From NCBI GenBank assembly GCA_028876395.1, contig JAGWRX010000164.1:1-45553 (forward strand): DNA of 45,553 bases. The letters run 5' to 3'. Shown in pieces: positions 14,474-22,759 of the stretch (position 1 is its first letter; each line of letters starts with the position of its first letter). Below the pieces are notes generated by a model. That model was not told the origin of the DNA. It saw only the letters and a program-made list of their open reading frames with translations, and made no database searches. The position numbers and the translations under genes are program-made. The DNA comes from Acidobacteriota bacterium. GTDB lineage: Bacteria > Acidobacteriota > Terriglobia > Terriglobales > Acidobacteriaceae.

Positions 14474-15898
14474 ATGCTCTCAGGACATGGGTCGGGAGGA
14501 GCCGGGTCACCTTTGGCGTCGCAGACGGAACTGCCGTCTGTTTGCATTGTCACGGTGGACGATGAGTTCCTTGACGTGCTGACTACCGAGCTGTCGCCCT
14601 GGTTCCACGTGGTTGTTCGAGACAGCTATGACGGCCTTGCGCGCTGGACGCGCGAAGCCCACGTCGTGGCAGTTCTGCTCGACATCGATACGCAAGGTGA
14701 AGACCCCTACGGCGGGCTGCCCGTGCTCGACGAGTTGCGCCGGCTGAATGAGGACCTCGTACTGATTTCCATGAGCCGGGCAAGGACGCGTTCTGTTGAG
14801 AAGCAGGCGCTCAGCGCCGGCGCCGATGGACACTTCCGCAACCCTGTCGATGTGACGGAACTGCGCATGACGCTGGTGGACACGCTGCGCCGCCGCGCTG
14901 AAGATGCAGAGCGCAAGCGGATGCGCCAGCAAGCATTCGAATTCAGCCGTTTCCAGGACTTTGTGGGCGCCAGCGAGCCGATGCGGCTTGTCTACGACGC
15001 CATCCAGCAGGTGGCCAGCAGCAGCATCAACGTGCTCATCCGAGGCGAAAGCGGCACGGGTAAGGAGCTGGCTGCGCGCGCTATTGTCGCGCTGAGTCGC
15101 CGGGCAAACAAGCCCTATATTCGCCTGAATTGCGCCGCTCTGCCGGAAAGCCTCATCGAGTCAGAACTCTTTGGCAGCGAGCGCGGCGCGTTTACGGGGG
15201 CACCTGAGTCGCGTCCCGGTCAGATCGAACTGGCCGACGGCGGCACGCTTTTCCTGGACGAGATCGCGACCCTCACGCTGCCATTGCAGACCAAGCTGCT
15301 GCGCGTGCTTGAAGATCACCAGGTGCAGCGGCTGGGTGGGCGCACGCAGCGCAAGATCGACTTCCGGCTCATCTGCGCCACGAACGAGCCGCTGGAGGAG
15401 ATGGCGCGCACCGGCCGGTTCCGCGAAGATCTCTACTACCGCATCCATGTTATTCCCATCCAACTTCCTTCGCTGCGGGAACGCACCGGAGATATCCCAG
15501 TGCTTTGCGAGCATTTCCTTCAAGTCCACTGCATGGCGAATGGCCTGCCGGTGAAGCGGCTCACTGCCGATGCGCTGTCTGTACTTGAGGAACATACCTG
15601 GCCGGGCAATGTGCGCGAGCTTGAGAACCTCATGCAGCGCTTGATCGTCACAACGCGCCGGGATGAAATCGACGCGAGCGATTTGCCGCCCAAGATGCTG
15701 GCTCACAGCGTAGCCGCACAGGAGGGCATTCTGCTGCCTGAAGAAGGCACAGACTTTGATGGGGAGGTTCGGCAGCTTGAGATCGCTTTGCTGGCTACCG
15801 CGCTGGGACGCACGAAGGGAAGCAAGTCCGCCGCCGCGAACTTGCTGAAGATCGACGTGCAGCGGATGAAATATCTTTGCCGCAAATACTCGCTATAG
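14474..15898 (+). CDS. Sigma-54-dependent response regulator (enhancer-binding protein)
   Basis: 474 residues. A receiver domain (about 20-140) with acidic Asp29/Asp30 and likely phospho-acceptor Asp70 is followed by an AAA+ domain and a Fis-type helix-turn-helix at the end (SAAANLLKIDVQRMKYL). The AAA+ domain has Walker A GESGTGKE (191-198), the sigma-54-contacting GAFTGA loop (238-243) and Walker B GGTLFLDE. It remodels sigma-54 polymerase at -24/-12 promoters. The conserved receiver lysine (normally K-P) is Asn in FRNP, so phosphorylation signalling may be unusual. No histidine kinase lies in the window. The ATG at 14474 is preferred to a TTG at 14420. A palindrome and a matching promoter lie directly downstream. 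Confidence 0.95.
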   Translation: MLSGHGSGGAGSPLASQTELPSVCIVTVDDEFLDVLTTELSPWFHVVVRDSYDGLARWTREAHVVAVLLDIDTQGEDPYGGLPVLDELRRLNEDLVLISMSRARTRSVEKQALSAGADGHFRNPVDVTELRMTLVDTLRRRAEDAERKRMRQQAFEFSRFQDFVGASEPMRLVYDAIQQVASSSINVLIRGESGTGKELAARAIVALSRRANKPYIRLNCAALPESLIESELFGSERGAFTGAPESRPGQIELADGGTLFLDEIATLTLPLQTKLLRVLEDHQVQRLGGRTQRKIDFRLICATNEPLEEMARTGRFREDLYYRIHVIPIQLPSLRERTGDIPVLCEHFLQVHCMANGLPVKRLTADALSVLEEHTWPGNVRELENLMQRLIVTTRRDEIDASDLPPKMLAHSVAAQEGILLPEEGTDFDGEVRQLEIALLATALGRTKGSKSAAANLLKIDVQRMKYLCRKYSL

Positions 15899-15907
15899 GC
15901 ATCGGTT

Positions 15908-15924
15908 TGGTGAATTATTCACCA
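15908..15924. promoter_or_regulatory. Perfect 17-base palindrome, candidate activator binding site
   Basis: TGGTGAATTATTCACCA has 8-base arms around a single central T. It starts 10 bases after the activator stop codon and about 120 bases before the -24/-12 promoter, the usual distance for an upstream activator site of a sigma-54 enhancer-binding protein. The single-base centre and absence of a T-tract argue against a terminator hairpin. Confidence 0.65.
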
Positions 15925-16044
15925 TCGATAGATTAATTTTTAACCTTCACGCCCAAAGATGAGCTCGCGAATGAAAATAGTCCATTGCCAATAAGTGCTA
16001 TTTATTCAACTATTTAATAGAGATATTGGCTATCGGTTGGAGTT

Positions 16045-16060
16045 TGGCATACGGCATGCA
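16045..16060 (+). promoter_or_regulatory. Sigma-54 (-24/-12) promoter of the small basic peptide gene
   Basis: TGGCATACGGCATGCA matches the consensus TGGCAC-N5-TTGCA at 9 of 11 positions. It has the invariant GG (16046-16047) and GC (16058-16059) exactly 10 bases apart. Transcription would begin near 16071, giving a leader of about 38 bases before the ATG at 16109. The gene for a sigma-54 activator lies immediately upstream. The surrounding DNA (15925-16044) is clearly AT-richer than the rest of the window, which would suit DNA bending. Confidence 0.72.
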
Positions 16061-16108
16061 CTAGATAAAGGCGTAACCGAAGTTCAACTTCTCCTGGAGG
16101 ATAAGACA

Positions 16109-16285
16109 ATGGCAATCACAAAGAAGTCACTGATCGGCAAGAGCGCATCTGCGAAGTCCTCAACCGCGAAGCCCTCCGACGCCAAGGGCCGTGCAGCTGC
16201 CAGCAAGCTGGTCAGCACCAAGCAGACCGCCAGCAAAGTGGTGGCGGCCATGACTGTCAACACCACCATGCTGGTCAACCAGTAG
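16109..16285 (+). CDS. Small basic Lys/Ala/Ser-rich peptide, candidate substrate of the adjacent export operon
   Basis: 58 residues starting at an ATG with CTCCTGGAGG upstream, among the strongest ribosome sites in the window. I recognise no family. Lysines stand at 6, 11, 16, 21 and 26, then 33, 38 and 43: a five-residue ladder with one two-residue slip. The spacers are mostly Ala, Ser and Thr. The last 15 residues (VVAAMTVNTTMLVNQ) are uncharged and mildly hydrophobic. There is no Cys and no standard signal peptide. It sits behind a -24/-12 promoter, ends before a strong bidirectional terminator and converges on a PqqD/M50/HlyD operon. It could be a leader-plus-core precursor peptide or a small nucleic-acid-binding protein. 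Confidence 0.78.
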   Translation: MAITKKSLIGKSASAKSSTAKPSDAKGRAAASKLVSTKQTASKVVAAMTVNTTMLVNQ

Positions 16286-16390
16286 AGAGCCCGTAGGCGC
16301 CAAGGTGCCTCAGGGATTGAGGAGTGCCTGCTGGCAGACAGACGGCAGCTTTCGCTGTTGGAGCACGCCAAGATTATAGAAAGACTGGGT

Positions 16391-16438
16391 GTAAAGTTAA
16401 CGGAGCGGCCGCTTAGACGGCCGCTCCGTTATCTTTAC
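16391..16438. terminator. Bidirectional terminator between peptide gene and export operon
   Basis: A perfect 13-base-pair stem (16399-16411 with 16418-16430, arms AACGGAGCGGCCG/CGGCCGCTCCGTT, loop CTTAGA) extends outward through one more A-T pair and, past a single T-T mismatch, through GTAAAG/CTTTAC to 16391-16438. It overlaps the stop codon of the minus-strand M50 gene and serves both convergent transcription units. Confidence 0.88.
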
Positions 16439-18579
16439 CAGGCATGAGCTTTGATCAGGTCCCAAAATAAAATCAGCGTCCGCTCTGCCAAACTACGCCG
16501 CACCCCGAAAATCTTAGCCTGGCCTGAGACACCGAACATCGGATTACCATCCCTGACGGACAGCGTCACGCGAGCACTGTAAAAAACTGCCAACTGAATC
16601 CCTTTATAGTCCTGCCGGGCGATCAAACCCGGGGGGAGAGCGACGGCGTCGCCTCCGGGGGGCGGCAGCGTCATGCGAAGAACAGAGAACTGGCCTGGCA
16701 GAGTCAGAGCGACTTCGGCGCCCGTGGGAATACGATCGAGTTGAGATGCAGGAATAAATATCCTGGCAACGCGCGGCCCGGCGTCTGCCAGATCAAGCAG
16801 TGACTGACCGGAGGCGACATCCTGATCGAGTAGCAAGCCGGGATTCTGCGTGAGAACTGTCCCGTCGGCTGGCGCGGCAATCACAAGAGAGGCTTGAGCT
16901 TCGTGGGCAAGTTCCTCGAAGTGCGCGGCTCCGCTCTGCCTGGCAGCCGCAGTTCCGATGCTTCGGCCTTGAAGCTGGGCGTTGAATGTCTGGAATCTGG
17001 CGCTGCTTACCTGAGCGGCAGACGAGGATTCCATTGACGCGGCCGTGAGGCTGCTCATGCGGAACAACGGCTGACCCGCACGGACCCTTTCCCCTTGCTG
17101 GACCAGCACTTCATTCACCCGACCTGCCACCGCCGCATGCAGCGTGTGCGAATGCATGGGCTCGATTACATAAAAGGCGCCCACTCGATCGCGCCAGATC
17201 GGCAGGAACAGAATTGCAGCCAGTGTTGCGGTCACGAGAGTGTGGACGGAACCCCAGCGAAGGTCTGAGCCGAGTTTGCGTTCCCAGAACTCCCGGGCCA
17301 CTTTACGCAACGAGCGCAGGCGCGACCGGAAGATGACAAACGCCAGGGCCCCGGCGGGGACGAGAGCGAACTCGGCAAGCCAGTGCGAAGCAATGTTGTA
17401 AGAGAAGCGGATCGCAAAAAAGAGCAGGAGATAGCTGTACGCTCCGGAAGCAAGAGCGTAAACGATAAAGAACGGCGCCCGCCGTCGCGGCACAACCGGA
17501 GTCTCAACCGGCAGGCGGAGGATGCGGTTCTGGAACCATCCGGAGAGGAAGGCTGTGGATCGCTCCTTGAGATCGGGAATTTCGATAAGCTCAGTAAAAA
17601 AATAGTAGCCGTCAAGTTTGATGAGCGGATTGAGATTAATGAGCGCGACCGCGAAGCCGGTAAGCAGAATGATCTGGTAGGCAAAATCATGCAGCCACTC
17701 GCCCGTGCGAGTGTTTGACCAGACAATCATTGCAAGGCCGCAGAGTATCATTTCCACCCAGATGCCGGCGATGATAGTAGCCAGCCGTTGTATCTTTGTG
17801 GTGGAGATCCATATCTCAGTCACATCAACGAAAAAGGCAGGCGCGAGATAGATGAACATGAATCCCATTCTGTGGACCTGTCCACCGTAGTGCTTGCAGG
17901 TCAAGCCGTGTGCTGATTCATGGAAAAATCCGAGAATGAGAAAGAGCAGCCAAAATTGCGTGAGGTCGAGCAAGCTCTTGTGGGCAAAGTTGAAATAGAG
18001 CACAGTGTCAGGGCCAAGGATGCTCCACTTGGAGATGAAGACTGTGGCTTCGAAGAAAAAAAGCAGGACGACGGCAAGAACGCACCAGCGGCTATACACA
18101 TAACTGCCGATGGCTCCATCGAGCCAACCAAGGTAGCGATCAGGATCCCATGCGGAGAAGCCGATGTGCGCCAGGTCGATTTTTGATCTGCCCCTGCGTC
18201 CCCGCTGGGCGAGAAGCTTCTCGCTCAGCGCGAGATTCTTCTCCTGCGGTGTTTTATACCAAAAATCGGATCCATCCATGTTCTCCGCGAAAGTCCGCAC
18301 TTCCTCGGAATCTATTGGCAGGCCTGTCTGGCTCGTATAGAGGTGGGCAATCTCCTCGTAGGAATGAACACCGTCGAAAAGTTTCGCAAGCTCCCATTGG
18401 CTGAGCGGAAAGCGATAGTAGTTAGCTTTGCCGCGCTGGAAGACTCCGACGACCGGCTCACCGTCGAGTACATCCTCACGCACGATAAGGTTGGGGTCGA
18501 GACGCGGAGGACGGCCGCGCGCTATTCGCGCCTGGGGCATTTCCGGAAGAGCGGCATCGAGGGCTTCACTTAGATTCAT
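16435..18579 (-). CDS. PqqD-like / M50 site-2 protease / HlyD fusion protein
   Basis: 714 residues. Residues about 30-110 resemble a PqqD/winged-helix peptide-binding module. A membrane metalloprotease core follows, with HESAH at 220-224 and LNPLIKLDGYYF, in which Asp323 would be the third zinc ligand. Six or more hydrophobic helices lie between about 165 and 430. The end (about 475-700) is a HlyD-like barrel-sandwich adaptor (AAVAGRVNEVLVQQGERVRAGQPLF). It resembles the 'putative peptide zinc metalloprotease' group that includes YydH. A role in cleaving, binding or exporting a small peptide is inferred. Its ATG overlaps the upstream stop (ATGA). It is the last gene of a three-gene operon. 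Confidence 0.88.
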   Translation of the reverse strand: MNLSEALDAALPEMPQARIARGRPPRLDPNLIVREDVLDGEPVVGVFQRGKANYYRFPLSQWELAKLFDGVHSYEEIAHLYTSQTGLPIDSEEVRTFAENMDGSDFWYKTPQEKNLALSEKLLAQRGRRGRSKIDLAHIGFSAWDPDRYLGWLDGAIGSYVYSRWCVLAVVLLFFFEATVFISKWSILGPDTVLYFNFAHKSLLDLTQFWLLFLILGFFHESAHGLTCKHYGGQVHRMGFMFIYLAPAFFVDVTEIWISTTKIQRLATIIAGIWVEMILCGLAMIVWSNTRTGEWLHDFAYQIILLTGFAVALINLNPLIKLDGYYFFTELIEIPDLKERSTAFLSGWFQNRILRLPVETPVVPRRRAPFFIVYALASGAYSYLLLFFAIRFSYNIASHWLAEFALVPAGALAFVIFRSRLRSLRKVAREFWERKLGSDLRWGSVHTLVTATLAAILFLPIWRDRVGAFYVIEPMHSHTLHAAVAGRVNEVLVQQGERVRAGQPLFRMSSLTAASMESSSAAQVSSARFQTFNAQLQGRSIGTAAARQSGAAHFEELAHEAQASLVIAAPADGTVLTQNPGLLLDQDVASGQSLLDLADAGPRVARIFIPASQLDRIPTGAEVALTLPGQFSVLRMTLPPPGGDAVALPPGLIARQDYKGIQLAVFYSARVTLSVRDGNPMFGVSGQAKIFGVRRSLAERTLILFWDLIKAHAW

Positions 18580-19535
18580 GGCGCGAGACGAACCTGCATG
18601 GACATTCCCGGCTTGAGCAGCGGCGATGGACGGACGACCGCGCCGATTACCTGCACACTGCCGCTGGCCGGATCGACCACAGGACTGACGCGGAGGATGC
18701 GGCCAGACTGGCGCAGGCCGGGGTAGTCCGCAGTCGTGAGTTCAAGGGTCTTGCCGACGGAGAAGGCAGCCATGGCGGTTTCCGATACAGTGAAAAGAAC
18801 ACGCAGAGGTGCTTCCGCTGTAATCCAGAAGAGGATGTCGCCTGCTTTGACCTCCTGGGCGGGACGCACGGAGCTGCGACCGACGACCCCAGTGAACGGC
18901 GCGACGATACGCGACTGCTCAAGTTGCAGGCTGGCAGTGCTGAGGTCAGCTTCCGCGGCTGCCTCCTCGTCGCGGTAATGGGCGACCTCGGCGATGGTCT
19001 CGTCGAGTTTGTATTTCACATGTTCCCAGTTCTCCTCGCTAATGATCTTGTCGGCGCGCATCACATCTGCGCGGCGCAGATCGGCCTCCGCGCTTTTTTC
19101 CTCTGCCTCCCACTCCCTTACCTGCGCATGGGCCGAGGCTATGCGTGCTTTATGTAAATCGCAGGCCGAGCGCAGAGCGCGGTCATCCAACTGCGCCAAA
19201 AGCTGGCCGCGCTGTACATGATCACCGATCAGGACCGCAATGTTCACAACGCGGCCGTCTCGTTCAGCAGCGATGTCGGCCTGCTGCTCGGCTACGAGGG
19301 GTCCTGTCGTCGTGAAAGATTTTGGATCCGATCTGTCTGACGGCGGCCCAGGCATGGAGGCTGGATCAGCTACGGAAGAGCTCACTGGAGTCTTGGATGC
19401 AGCGGCACTGGCAGCCTGGGCTCGGGGATGGCTGTCGCAGCCGGTACTGAACAGCACACTTGCGGCAGCTGCGCAAAGAGCAGCGGCGGCAGGATGCATT
19501 CGGCAGAAAGAGTGCGGGCCCATGCGTATCACCAT
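18576..19535 (-). CDS. HlyD/RND-type membrane fusion lipoprotein
   Basis: 319 residues from the ATG at 19535, which overlaps the upstream stop codon; ATGs at 19562, 19523 and 19499 are alternatives. A hydrophobic stretch ends in FSTGC, a lipobox, so the mature protein is probably a lipid-anchored periplasmic adaptor. The barrel-sandwich halves (DGRVVNIAVLIGDHVQRGQLLAQLD and RIVAPFTGVVGRSSVRPAQEVKAGDIL) flank a coiled-coil hairpin of about 90 residues, then a beta-barrel domain. Such proteins link inner- and outer-membrane parts of efflux machines, but no RND or ABC pump and no TolC homologue is encoded in the window. It lies between, and is coupled to, two other HlyD-containing proteins. Confidence 0.88.
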   Translation of the reverse strand: MVIRMGPHSFCRMHPAAAALCAAAASVLFSTGCDSHPRAQAASAAASKTPVSSSVADPASMPGPPSDRSDPKSFTTTGPLVAEQQADIAAERDGRVVNIAVLIGDHVQRGQLLAQLDDRALRSACDLHKARIASAHAQVREWEAEEKSAEADLRRADVMRADKIISEENWEHVKYKLDETIAEVAHYRDEEAAAEADLSTASLQLEQSRIVAPFTGVVGRSSVRPAQEVKAGDILFWITAEAPLRVLFTVSETAMAAFSVGKTLELTTADYPGLRQSGRILRVSPVVDPASGSVQVIGAVVRPSPLLKPGMSMQVRLAP

Positions 19536-21934
19536 CCAATCCAGTCCCATAGAGTCTGCCATATCCAGAGGGCGGGCCGGCGCAGCAGAACATACCCAGC
19601 CGGGCGCCAGCCAATAAAGATCTTTCCGCGGCCTGCCATACCAGCGCGGAGACTGGCGTCGAGATTCGGCAGCGGAACCTCGGCGGTGAAGGTGCGCTCG
19701 CCATCGCCCGGATGCGCCTGTGGGCTCACGACGGCAACGCGACCATGCCAGGTGCGCTGCGGATAGCTATCCAGCTTGATGGCTGCAGTCTGGCCGGGGC
19801 TCAGCAGGGCGACGTCTCGCTCGGGAACGGAAACCTGGAGGACCGCGGTTGAGAGATCAAGCACTTGTGCGAAGGGAGCACCTGCGTCAAGATGCTGGCC
19901 GGCGACATTCTGAAGGTTGGGAGTGACCACGATGCCGGCAATGGGCGAGCGCAATTTTGCGCTATCGAGGCGAGAGCGGGCACGCGCCACCTCAGACCGA
20001 AGAAACTCGGCCTGGGCGCGGTCGGCTCCGGCCTGAGCAGAGCCGTGAGCCAGATCATTCTGCATGACCAGCATCGCTTCTTGATATTTTGCTTCGGATG
20101 CATTCAAATCCGTGCGCCACTGCCAATCGTTGATGGCTCCCAACACGTCTCCGGCGGCTACGCGCTGGCCTTCATGCGCAAAGACCGAAGTGACATTCCC
20201 GTCGACGGGGGCGGCGATCGTGACCAGATGCTGTGGCGCCACGACCGAATCACCCACCACGCGCATCGGCAGCGGACAGAACGCAAGAAACAGCGCGCAT
20301 TCGAATACCAGGCCAAAGGTCATCCAGCGGCTGCGGCGACTGCTTAACACGGCTTGCTTTTTTTTCAGCAAGGGTTCAATCAGGCTGATGAGCGGCACTT
20401 CGCGGTAGAGCAATGCGTTCCGGATGGCCACAGTCGCCTGCCCGGCCAGCACTTTAATCATCTCGGTGTGGGGCAGGTCAAGAAAATCAGGTTCGCTGCT
20501 TTCATAGAGCAGCAATCCAACACGACCCTGGTCGTCAGTGAGCGGCAGGGCGTAGAGCCCGCGGTAGCCTGTTTCGCTAAAGTGGCGCGCGACGGCCGAC
20601 GGCAGATCGCCGTTCGGATCTTCGCTGGATTCTTCATGCTGAAAAAGGTGCAGCGGTTCTGATTGCGAAGAGAGCCAGCGCATCAGTTCGTGTAGCCGCT
20701 CAACCTGCGCATCCCCGAGCGGCAGGCTCGACATGCCAGAGACGGCCTTCAATTGCAGACGCCCGTGGTGGTCCAGCGCGATGGCGCAGAGTTCGTAGGG
20801 CAGCACGTTCTGCGGACTGTTGACGATAATCTGAAGCAGACGGTCCAGGCGCAGCGTGGAGGTGATTTCCGAACTGACGCGCACCAGTGTTTTCAGGATC
20901 TCGAGCTTGCGCTCAGCCAGCAGCAGGTTCGCGTTCTTGAGCGCGCTGCTGACCGTCTCCGCCATGGAGACCAGGAAAAACAGGTCGTCCTCATCAAAGG
21001 GATGGTCTTCTCTGTTGATGGCCTCGAGAACGCCAACCTCGGCCTCATCCTGCAGCAGCGGGACCAGTAAAGCGTTGGTGATCGGCGGAATGCCGCTGTC
21101 GCCGCCGGCAGCAGCGTTGCGCAGGCTCAAGCGCTCATCCTCGGCGTCGGCAATCAGCAGAGGCTCGCCTTCCTCAGCCATATCCGCTACATACCCCTCG
21201 CCGGGAGCCTGCGTCATGCCGACCTCTACGGAAGCGTCCTCGCCGCTGCTGGAAACCAGGCGCAGCACGTCCCCGTCGAAGAGCCAGAGATGAATGGCCT
21301 GGCAGGCCAGCATAGCCGAAGCCTTCACCGGAATTAACGCAATGACTGCATCGAGTTCGAGGGTTGAGTTCAGCGATTTCTCGAGATCGTAGAGCTGCGA
21401 CATCCGGTGTACGGAATCAAGGAGAGTCTGGCGCTGCTGCTCGAATGCCTCGGCTGCCAGGATTGCGGGCGAAGCAAGCTGGGCAATGGGCGCAATCTCT
21501 TCCAGGTCCTTGGGCTGCAGTCCCGCGGAAAAGGTGAGAATCTCGAGGGCGCCCGTCAACTGGCCTTCCTGCAGCAGCGGGATATACGCGAGCGACGCGA
21601 TGGAGCGCGAGACGTGCAGATGGGCGTAGTCTTCGCGCCGGATCCGGGCGGCAGGATAGATCACAGTCTGGGGAAAGTCGGTGAGCAGCGGAGCGATCAG
21701 CCGGCTCCCCGGGGGGATCGAAGACTGCTCGATAGACAAATCTCCCGCCACACCGAGGGCAGTCCAGGTTGCAGGGCCATCTTCATCGGAAAGCCGGTGC
21801 ACGGCGCAGGCGCTGTCTGGAATCTGCTCAACGATTGCGGCGGCGACGAGCGCGGCGCGCGCGGCTGAATCGGACGCGGCCAAGAGCAATGCGGTGATAT
21901 CAACAACAGCAGCGTTCAGCGGAGGCATTGTCAT
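19529..21934 (-). CDS. Triple-GAF sensor fused to a HlyD-type membrane adaptor
   Basis: 801 residues. Three GAF-like domains lie at about 15-170, 190-340 and 355-515; the second contains LVSSSGEDASVEVGMTQAPGEGYVADM and ALLVPLLQDEAEVGVLEAINR. Then come one membrane helix (about 540-562), a barrel-sandwich (APVDGNVTSVFAHEGQRVAAGDVL), a coiled coil and a second sandwich half with LRSPIAGIVVTPNL. The cytoplasmic GAF part would sense a small molecule or redox state while the outer part works as an adaptor. Such GAF-HlyD fusions are seldom described. The gene heads the operon; ATG at 21934 follows CTGGAGAAA. Ligand and export partner are unknown. Confidence 0.87.
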   Translation of the reverse strand: MTMPPLNAAVVDITALLLAASDSAARAALVAAAIVEQIPDSACAVHRLSDEDGPATWTALGVAGDLSIEQSSIPPGSRLIAPLLTDFPQTVIYPAARIRREDYAHLHVSRSIASLAYIPLLQEGQLTGALEILTFSAGLQPKDLEEIAPIAQLASPAILAAEAFEQQRQTLLDSVHRMSQLYDLEKSLNSTLELDAVIALIPVKASAMLACQAIHLWLFDGDVLRLVSSSGEDASVEVGMTQAPGEGYVADMAEEGEPLLIADAEDERLSLRNAAAGGDSGIPPITNALLVPLLQDEAEVGVLEAINREDHPFDEDDLFFLVSMAETVSSALKNANLLLAERKLEILKTLVRVSSEITSTLRLDRLLQIIVNSPQNVLPYELCAIALDHHGRLQLKAVSGMSSLPLGDAQVERLHELMRWLSSQSEPLHLFQHEESSEDPNGDLPSAVARHFSETGYRGLYALPLTDDQGRVGLLLYESSEPDFLDLPHTEMIKVLAGQATVAIRNALLYREVPLISLIEPLLKKKQAVLSSRRSRWMTFGLVFECALFLAFCPLPMRVVGDSVVAPQHLVTIAAPVDGNVTSVFAHEGQRVAAGDVLGAINDWQWRTDLNASEAKYQEAMLVMQNDLAHGSAQAGADRAQAEFLRSEVARARSRLDSAKLRSPIAGIVVTPNLQNVAGQHLDAGAPFAQVLDLSTAVLQVSVPERDVALLSPGQTAAIKLDSYPQRTWHGRVAVVSPQAHPGDGERTFTAEVPLPNLDASLRAGMAGRGKIFIGWRPAGYVLLRRPALWIWQTLWDWIGW

Positions 21935-22060
21935 GAATCAGGTTTCTCCAGTAACACTCTGCTTGACAGGCGGACTCTCAATGTGGTCTCTGGAGTAGTT
22001 GGAGGCTAACAAGCCTCGCGCCGGGTGTAAAGCAAATTCTTGCAGGAGACTGGGAAACAC

Positions 22061-22405
22061 GTGGATCTGGACATCAAGCAGAGCGGCAATATATGCACAC
22101 TGAAACTGAAAGGCCGCCTGGTAAGTGGAGAGCCTGTCAAACAATTTGAGGAGGTCTACCAGGCAGCTCTTTCCAGCGGGCATATTTTTCTGATTCTCGA
22201 CCTTGAAGCTTTGCCCTATATTGACTCATCTGGCATTGGCTCAGTCGTCAATGCATTGAGGCTTTCAACAAAGCTGGGCGGAAGCACGAAGCTGGTGAAT
22301 CCAGCCTCTTTTGTTGCCAAGACCTTCAAGATGGTCGGCATCTTAACCCTCTTTGGAGTCTATCCATCGGAAGCAGATGCCGTGGCCGCGTGCGGCGGCT
22401 CATGA
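22061..22405 (+). CDS. STAS-domain anti-sigma-factor antagonist (SpoIIAA-like)
   Basis: 114 residues covering one STAS domain. LILDLEALPYIDSSGIGSVV contains the Asp-Ser-Ser-Gly motif (residues 55-58) whose serine is phosphorylated in SpoIIAA-type antagonists. I chose GTG 22061, with AGGAG about 12 bases upstream, over a TTG at 22040 with no site. It diverges from the GAF/HlyD operon across about 126 bases, so a functional link is plausible: partner switching could feed into this system. No cognate HATPase/anti-sigma kinase gene is present in the window. A small hairpin (GAGGCT/AGCCTC, 22002-22017) sits in the shared promoter region. Confidence 0.85.
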   Translation: MDLDIKQSGNICTLKLKGRLVSGEPVKQFEEVYQAALSSGHIFLILDLEALPYIDSSGIGSVVNALRLSTKLGGSTKLVNPASFVAKTFKMVGILTLFGVYPSEADAVAACGGS

Positions 22406-22438
22406 GAACCTCCGGGCAAGGGCCCGACATTCCAGAAA

Positions 22439-22759
22439 TCGCCATCCCTTCGTTCCGTTCAGGAAGCCAGGGCCCTGCTGCGGCAGCGTCATCACCTGGC
22501 GCCATCGGAGGAGGATGACTTCTCCGTCCGCAACATGCAGGAAATGATTGCCGCGCAGGCTGAGTCGTCACGCATCACGTCCATCATGCTTGCCGCGGCG
22601 GCATCGGTTTCTCTGGTCGCTGGTGGCATCGGCATCATGGACATCATGCTGGTTTCGGTGCGCGAGCGGACTCGCGAGGTCGGACTTCGCCACCCGGTGG
22701 GCGTGAAAACCCGCGACATCCTCACGCAATTTCTTATTGAAGCCTTAGGCTGCGAATAG
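22439..22759 (+). pseudogene. MacB/FtsX-type ABC permease fragment
   Basis: About 106 codons include [21 protein letters not shown], then [28 protein letters not shown] and [10 protein letters not shown]. This is the first transmembrane helix and following conserved loop of the MacB C-terminal permease domain. The normal protein would continue with three helices, but a stop comes directly after ...EALGCE. There is no start of the gene and no ATPase part nearby. The usual RMAVGA after GLR is changed to HPVGV. It is a dead internal scrap between the STAS gene and the carbohydrate region. Confidence 0.78.

Follow-up and report, generated by a model that had tools for sequence, protein, structure and literature searches.

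The stretch analysed here, 45,553 nt of contig JAGWRX010000164.1 from an acidobacterial genome (assembly GCA_028876395.1) and referred to below as the window, carries a candidate system for the maturation and export of a small peptide, in which the genes for a sigma-54-dependent activator and a basic peptide face an operon of three periplasmic adaptor proteins. The features of the locus, in window coordinates, are as follows.

14474..15898, plus strand: sigma-54-dependent activator of response-regulator type (Pfam Sigma54_activat, E 4.9e-67, with AAA lid)
15908..15924, no strand: 17-base palindrome TGGTGAATTATTCACCA, predicted activator site (from sequence)
15931..15945, no strand: second activator-like site GATTAATTTTTAACC, one mismatch to the consensus
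16045..16060, plus strand: -24/-12 (sigma-54) promoter TGGCATACGGCATGC, 64 nt before the peptide start codon
16095..16100, plus strand: ribosome-binding site TGGAGG (from sequence), its GGAGG 8 nt before the ATG
16109..16285, plus strand: open reading frame (ORF) of the basic peptide, 58 residues, with leader MAITKKSLIG... and a short tail
16391..16438, no strand: long GC inverted repeat between the convergent genes, probable bidirectional terminator (RNA fold)
16435..18579, minus strand: fusion of an RRE-like (PqqD-like) domain, an M50 protease and a periplasmic adaptor (HlyD) (Pfam M50 and HlyD; fold evidence for the N-terminus)
18576..19562, minus strand: periplasmic adaptor (HlyD) of RND_mfp type, probably a lipoprotein (RND_mfp, E 4.7e-47)
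19529..21934, minus strand: three-GAF periplasmic adaptor fusion (GAF_2 in three stretches, and HlyD_D23)
22040..22405, plus strand: STAS-domain protein, divergent from the operon (STAS, E 5e-15)

A sequence-only reading of this DNA had proposed a sigma-54 activator, a 17-base palindrome, a correctly placed -24/-12 promoter and a 58-residue basic peptide with a strong ribosome-binding site, and all of these lie where it had put them. The coupled operon facing them (three-GAF-HlyD, HlyD lipoprotein and M50-HlyD) and the divergent STAS gene likewise agree with the Pfam domains and coordinates; the M50-HlyD and lipoprotein genes share 4 bases, and the three adaptor genes form one minus-strand operon. 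The proposed bidirectional terminator is borne out in part, as the GC inverted repeat fits but the terminator scan has no entry at 16391-16438. The activator of the window contains the GAFTGA motif, which is exact in 28 of 44 homologues (the window's included), and its REC domain is matched at E 5.3e-6 with 27.0 bits, under the Pfam cut-off of 30.2. The second activator-like site, which the earlier reading lacked, lies 22 bp from the first palindrome and 114 nt upstream of the -24 element.

The gene set recurs across Acidobacteria. An alignment scan of a species-genome collection with the M50 protein gave 405 relatives, of which the best 80 by M50 similarity were kept with the peptide ignored; these loci come from Granulicella, Edaphobacter, Candidatus Sulfotelmatobacter, Korobacter, Acidiferrales and others. 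Within the family of the window, a relative of the M50 protein is present in 41 of 200 genomes, and larger stretches were taken around 40 family M50 matches, a set that partly overlaps the best 80. In the family stretches the gene order is kept, and the activator is convergent wherever it is present, except at one locus (L047). In the best 80, the adaptor genes and the activator surround the M50 gene, fewer of them being visible at loci on contig ends. The M50-HlyD, HlyD and GAF-HlyD genes occur together in the window and its relatives, and a STAS gene lies near the operon, in one of two alternative positions, in many loci but not all.

A complete gap between the M50 and activator genes is available in 65 of the 80 loci, and each of the 65 holds a short basic peptide, 50 of them of the KKS type found in the window and 15 of a KKGKKLG-like type in a more distant M50 clade. 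The short gap ORF carries a conserved leader, M-x-IQKKSLI...KKAI. Where the gap is incomplete (15 loci), the peptide is found in 3, and the other 12 loci end within 320 bases of the M50 gene. A pattern scan recovered 49 KKS peptides in gaps and none outside them in 922,431 bases, the remaining 16 being assigned by eye. The KKGKK-type set was also assembled by eye and afterwards checked with a lysine-content control, in which an ORF of 25-90 residues with at least 20% lysine and a ribosome-binding site is present in 13 of the 15 distant gaps but in none of 778 stretches of equal size taken from other parts of these loci; the gaps of L181 and L183, which fall outside the 13, have peptides with KKGKK leaders and repeat tails. 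Several loci hold more than one peptide gene (three in L100 and L188, two in L117 and four in L186). For the analyses below, 70 distinct peptides were defined by a KK[SN]-type motif near the start and a ribosome-site match, with a pattern that was written after the first peptides had been seen and that is not exhaustive (L067 and L072 fail it). The gaps of five distant loci (L170, L172, L174, L178 and L184) hold a further type of short lysine-rich ORF (MAKKTLKKAKKLEATKPL-like) besides the KKGKKLG type. Three of the 15 complete distant-clade gaps also hold a minus-strand gene for a SET-domain protein beside the lysine-rich peptide (Pfam SET, E 1e-19 to 7e-19; L172:10217-10672, L174:10146-10601 and L178:7536-7991). 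Such a protein could be a lysine methyltransferase acting on the neighbouring peptide, and no modifying enzyme is common to the loci.

The leader was also traced with a hidden Markov model. The window peptide has no match in a Pfam and NCBIfam scan and scores E 2.8e-6 against this profile, which includes its own sequence. In the 200 family genomes, the profile matches 39 genomes at E 5.2e-6 or better, the next match being at 0.004. Leader and M50 occur together in 38 of the 200, M50 without the leader in 3 and the leader without M50 in 1. Two of the three M50-only genomes have contigs that end in or just past the M50 gene (G112 and G116) and the third has a broken locus with a collapsed gap (G137); in the leader-only genome (G051) the leader lies near a contig edge. 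The two are on separate contigs in 5 of the 38 (G024, G060, G120, G136 and G146), and linkage is not established in those five. As 33 peptides from beside M50 genes of these same family genomes, plus that of the window, went into the profile, its matches in M50-positive genomes are in part built in, and the Fisher p of 3e-36 for the co-occurrence is too good. At E<=0.05 the profile missed four peptides that the ORF scan found (L113, L114, L116 and L117), and that of L131 (E 0.02) was added by eye. Its matches number 8 among 297 genomes at the phylum level, none of them outside the family of the window, and 24 among 399 at the class level, 7 of these being from another family. Across the 65 complete gaps and the 200 family genomes, the peptide is thus neither consistently missing beside such operons nor found mainly without them, and the short lysine-rich frame that the sequence-only reading had suggested looking for beside the operon does recur.

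The promoter recurs with the peptide. Sites resembling -24/-12 elements lie within 150 nt of 63 of the 70 KKS peptide starts (median 70 nt), compared with 2.6% of 20,000 random windows, and are found at 16 of 20 KKGKK peptides. Only 1 of 63 export operons has such a site and, because the operon lacks the peptide's kind of promoter, peptide and operon are probably under separate control. Of 63 peptide promoters, 48 are preceded by the motif GGTTAA-N3-TTAACC with up to two mismatches (0.6% in shuffles), in most cases at 110-150 nt from the -24 element. The exact form GGTKAANNNTTMACC has a single match in the window's own genome, which is this site, as does a backwards control. Across ten genomes, 11 exact sites fall in five and none in the other five, 7 at peptide loci and 4 elsewhere, with 5 for the backwards control. 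To judge by these sites, the peptide gene is probably under the control of the activator, perhaps among other targets. In the distant clade, another palindrome of the GTTGA-N5-TCAAC type stands at a similar place upstream of 3 of 20 peptides (L175, L180 and L184), as if the activator and its site had evolved together there.

Behind the leader, most tails are tandem repeats whose unit is specific to the lineage (RLDSAK, NKLAP, LSGGKG, VRPT, KVVGHSP, ADAGSMA and others), with best periods of 3 to 14 residues. In 62 of the 70 distinct peptides the repetition exceeds that of shuffles (p<=0.01); the 8 that do not repeat include the window peptide (p=0.19). The tails are of low complexity, with almost no C, W or Y and a median net charge of +0.17 per residue. 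The description of the peptide as basic holds for that of the window and most relatives but not for 4 of the 70 tails, which are neutral or acidic. All 50 tails picked by DNA periodicity have periods divisible by three, and their copies mismatch 725/586/1501 times at codon positions 1/2/3. In 43 tails picked by protein periodicity, a choice that itself favours synonymous changes, single-base differences are 955 synonymous vs 150 nonsynonymous, where ∼301 vs 804 are expected. The repeats are, on this codon evidence, kept by selection at the protein level. Whatever the band of M50 identity, the tails have on average changed more quickly than the leaders, although individual pairs such as L110/L118 depart from this. 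A conserved leader with a variable core, as these peptides have, is a feature of precursors of ribosomally synthesized and post-translationally modified peptides (RiPPs).

On the side of the operon, the M50 residues H220, E221, H224, N317, P318 and D323 are invariant in 70 aligned rows. The fusion matches the NCBIfam model of the daptide leader peptidase (daptide_HExxH) at E 5.9e-46, with 157 bits under a cut-off of 300, and that of the YydH/LiaK epipeptide protease at E 1.6e-8, likewise under its cut-off. The label 'PqqD-like' given to its N-terminus earlier finds no Pfam PqqD match in 31 members of the fusion family; the label is based on profile and fold evidence. As a fold search with the whole protein was filled by adaptor-domain matches, the N-terminus was folded alone, and its AF2 model resembles RiPP leader-binding (RRE) folds. 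A lipobox-like motif is present in 53 of 72 homologues of the HlyD lipoprotein, the window's included. Within ∼8 kb of the locus, each neighbour family is limited to 8 of 62 loci at most (ORFs of at least 130 residues, core genes masked, clusters judged by eye), and hence neither a transporter nor a tailoring gene regularly accompanies the system; ABC-like ORFs appear in 6 of the 62 and RND-like ORFs in 3 (by eye). The earlier statement that no ABC, RND or TolC gene is present stands for a conserved ABC or RND partner and must be qualified for the outer-membrane factor, as the window's own genome has 24 OEP domain matches elsewhere. Among the 41 M50-positive genomes, SecA_DEAD has one match in 35, two in 3 (G091, G146 and G192) and none in 3, and most of the matches listed lie in frames of ∼1000 residues, as in canonical SecA. 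Two matches also occur in some M50-negative genomes. A second SecA was not found in the locus or genome for the M50-positive set, the three genomes with two matches not having been examined further.

Sequence comparison thus establishes how the genes are linked, the leader and the repeats, the promoter and the sites, the assignment of domains and the conservation of catalytic residues, and we consider it likely that these elements make up a system for leader-directed maturation and export of a peptide. The response-regulator-type activator would bind the palindromes and switch on one small peptide gene. On the cytoplasmic side, the RRE-like domain of the RRE-M50-adaptor protein would bind the conserved lysine-rich leader, which the M50 active site would remove in or at the membrane. 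The tail, a tandem-repeat chain in most lineages, may then exit through a conduit formed by the three adaptors, which the GAF domains would gate from a cytoplasmic signal and which an outer-membrane factor encoded elsewhere would complete. That the facing operon acts on the peptide as its substrate, as the sequence-only reading had suggested, is supported, and this proposal gains a mechanism from the RRE-like fold and the match to the daptide leader peptidase; cutting and export themselves are predicted steps. The tandem repeats, the wider gene family and the published SecA/M50/HlyD/GAF module (PMC4452313) had escaped that earlier reading.

What becomes of the tail under this scheme may be envisaged in two ways. 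Its export as a whole, as a polymer serving in a surface coat, a matrix, an adhesion filament or a polycationic antimicrobial, is the stronger candidate while falling somewhat short of an even chance. The low complexity, the near absence of C, W and Y and the prevailing positive charge of the tails are in keeping with such a polymer; because of the four neutral or acidic tails, however, killing by charge cannot be general, and no potential immunity family exceeds 8 of 62 loci. Of three distant plasmid loci with M50-HlyD genes that were opened, two have a giant protein ahead of the operon, namely a DUF4347 protein in L189 and the product of a 24-kb 'calcium-binding protein' gene in L191, as would suit a polymer; the third (L190) lists none. 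The M50-HlyD operons of L189 and L191 are possibly secretion systems for giant surface proteins; one of these two loci also has TolC, and one (L191) has SecA. Cutting of the exported tail into its repeat units, which would act as a lineage-specific signal in the manner of yeast alpha-factor and Kex2 precursors, appears rather unlikely. The unit is sharply lineage-specific while the leader is constant, and copies within one peptide are alike and constrained as protein. The same logic is followed by fungal Kex2-processed repeat precursors, in which, from the parts of the account considered here, one precursor holds many tandem units that are diverse between species (PMC7329392). These fungal precursors differ from the present peptides, which are bacterial, apparently leader/RRE based and without a cleavage site common to the units; ADAGSMA, NVASG and FQGPGG contain no basic residue at all. 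The spread of the best periods, the eight tails without a significant repeat and the lack of a potential receptor family in more than 8 of 62 loci also speak against a unit signal.

A peptide that is not exported at all, but serves as a ligand or decoy regulating an M50/GAF-adaptor machine with another true cargo, is improbable. The separate promoter arrangement (1 of 63 operons vs 63 of 70 peptides) would accord with such a role, but long, lineage-specific repeats selected as protein are needless for a pure ligand, and multiple peptide genes at a single locus, as many as four in L186, look like cargo variants. That an unrelated small gene lies there by chance has a negligible likelihood, since the peptide fills every complete gap and controls outside the gaps give 0, and the promoter enrichment at peptide starts together with the recurring arrangement is more than chance would give.

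With leader-directed export as the preferred interpretation, the fixed front end and differing tandem-repeat tail beside an apparent switch and export gene set suggest an undescribed kind of secreted bacterial peptide in soil Acidobacteria. Somewhat more tentatively, and with the balance slightly against it, this could be a new class of leader-guided precursor with a fast-changing, lineage-specific repeat tail, which RRE-M50-adaptor proteins would process and export with no ABC, RND or second SecA component of their own, and which would act as a multi-copy signal or a self-assembling coat and, in some lineages, be lysine-methylated by an adjacent SET enzyme. A conserved leader joined to a rapidly changing tandem-repeat tail under protein-level selection is, to our knowledge, rare in bacteria, and the system may offer a natural means of secreting repeat polypeptides under the guidance of a leader. 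No paper on this peptide was seen among the open-access matches listed, judged by title and the start of the abstract. Named Granulicella and Edaphobacter strains carry the system, which makes it amenable to experiment.

The closest published relative, going by the parts of that paper covered here, is the module of Kamneva, Poudel and Ward (2015), which combines a secondary SecA_DEAD protein with M50-HlyD, HlyD and GAF-HlyD proteins (PMC4452313). Its authors call the broader role of the module completely unknown, the parts covered name no substrate, and the term 'Acidobacteria' has 0 occurrences in the main text (PMC4452313). What the two have in common is a set of adaptor-domain proteins, of which one carries M50 and another GAF domains, together with the absence of an ABC transporter. 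Unlike that module, the acidobacterial system has no detected secondary SecA and adds the sigma-54 activator with its sites and promoter, the leader/repeat peptide and STAS. It is a variant of the SecA/M50/HlyD/GAF module that does without this SecA and has a switch of its own, with a small peptide as the candidate cargo. For a relative of the 2015 module (PMC4452313), there is now a candidate cargo with a leader, a switch dedicated to it and a pathway open to testing.

Daptides, a RiPP group, use an RRE-dependent intramembrane peptidase, MpaP (PMC10036551, in the parts considered). As there, an RRE-like domain lies N-terminal to a site-2 protease, the precursor leader is conserved and the daptide peptidase model is matched; in contrast, the score stays under the cut-off of that model, the leader is different, a C-terminal adaptor is fused to the protease, the tails are repeats and, as no neighbour family exceeds 8 of 62 loci, there is no conserved tailoring set. 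The system would work like a RiPP leader/core pair with an RRE-dependent protease, while it fails the tested features of a named RiPP class. The YydH/LiaK epipeptide system also places an M50 protease beside a small peptide; in the present loci, however, no radical SAM enzyme or other gene is a regular neighbour, and we know of no adaptor fusion in the YydH/LiaK family. Type I secretion and tripartite export of the MacAB-TolC type differ in their ABC or RND partner, which is not conserved in the acidobacterial loci, although a transporter could be encoded elsewhere.

Some minor observations concern the surroundings of these genes. A small ORF beside a Burkholderia M50-HlyD gene was considered and set aside, as it looks unrelated to the peptide. 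One locus (L074) appears to be a decayed copy, in which M50 and activator genes are fragmented, the gap has collapsed and no peptide was found, as if the parts had been lost together. In 6 of 62 loci (L132, L145, L147, L152, L156 and L158), an ORF resembling an RsbW-type anti-sigma kinase (by eye) lies beside the STAS gene. Directly after the STAS gene of the window, positions 22412-22757 (plus strand) hold a stretch like the C-terminus of an FtsX/MacB permease (FtsX, E 5.6e-6), apparently a remnant.
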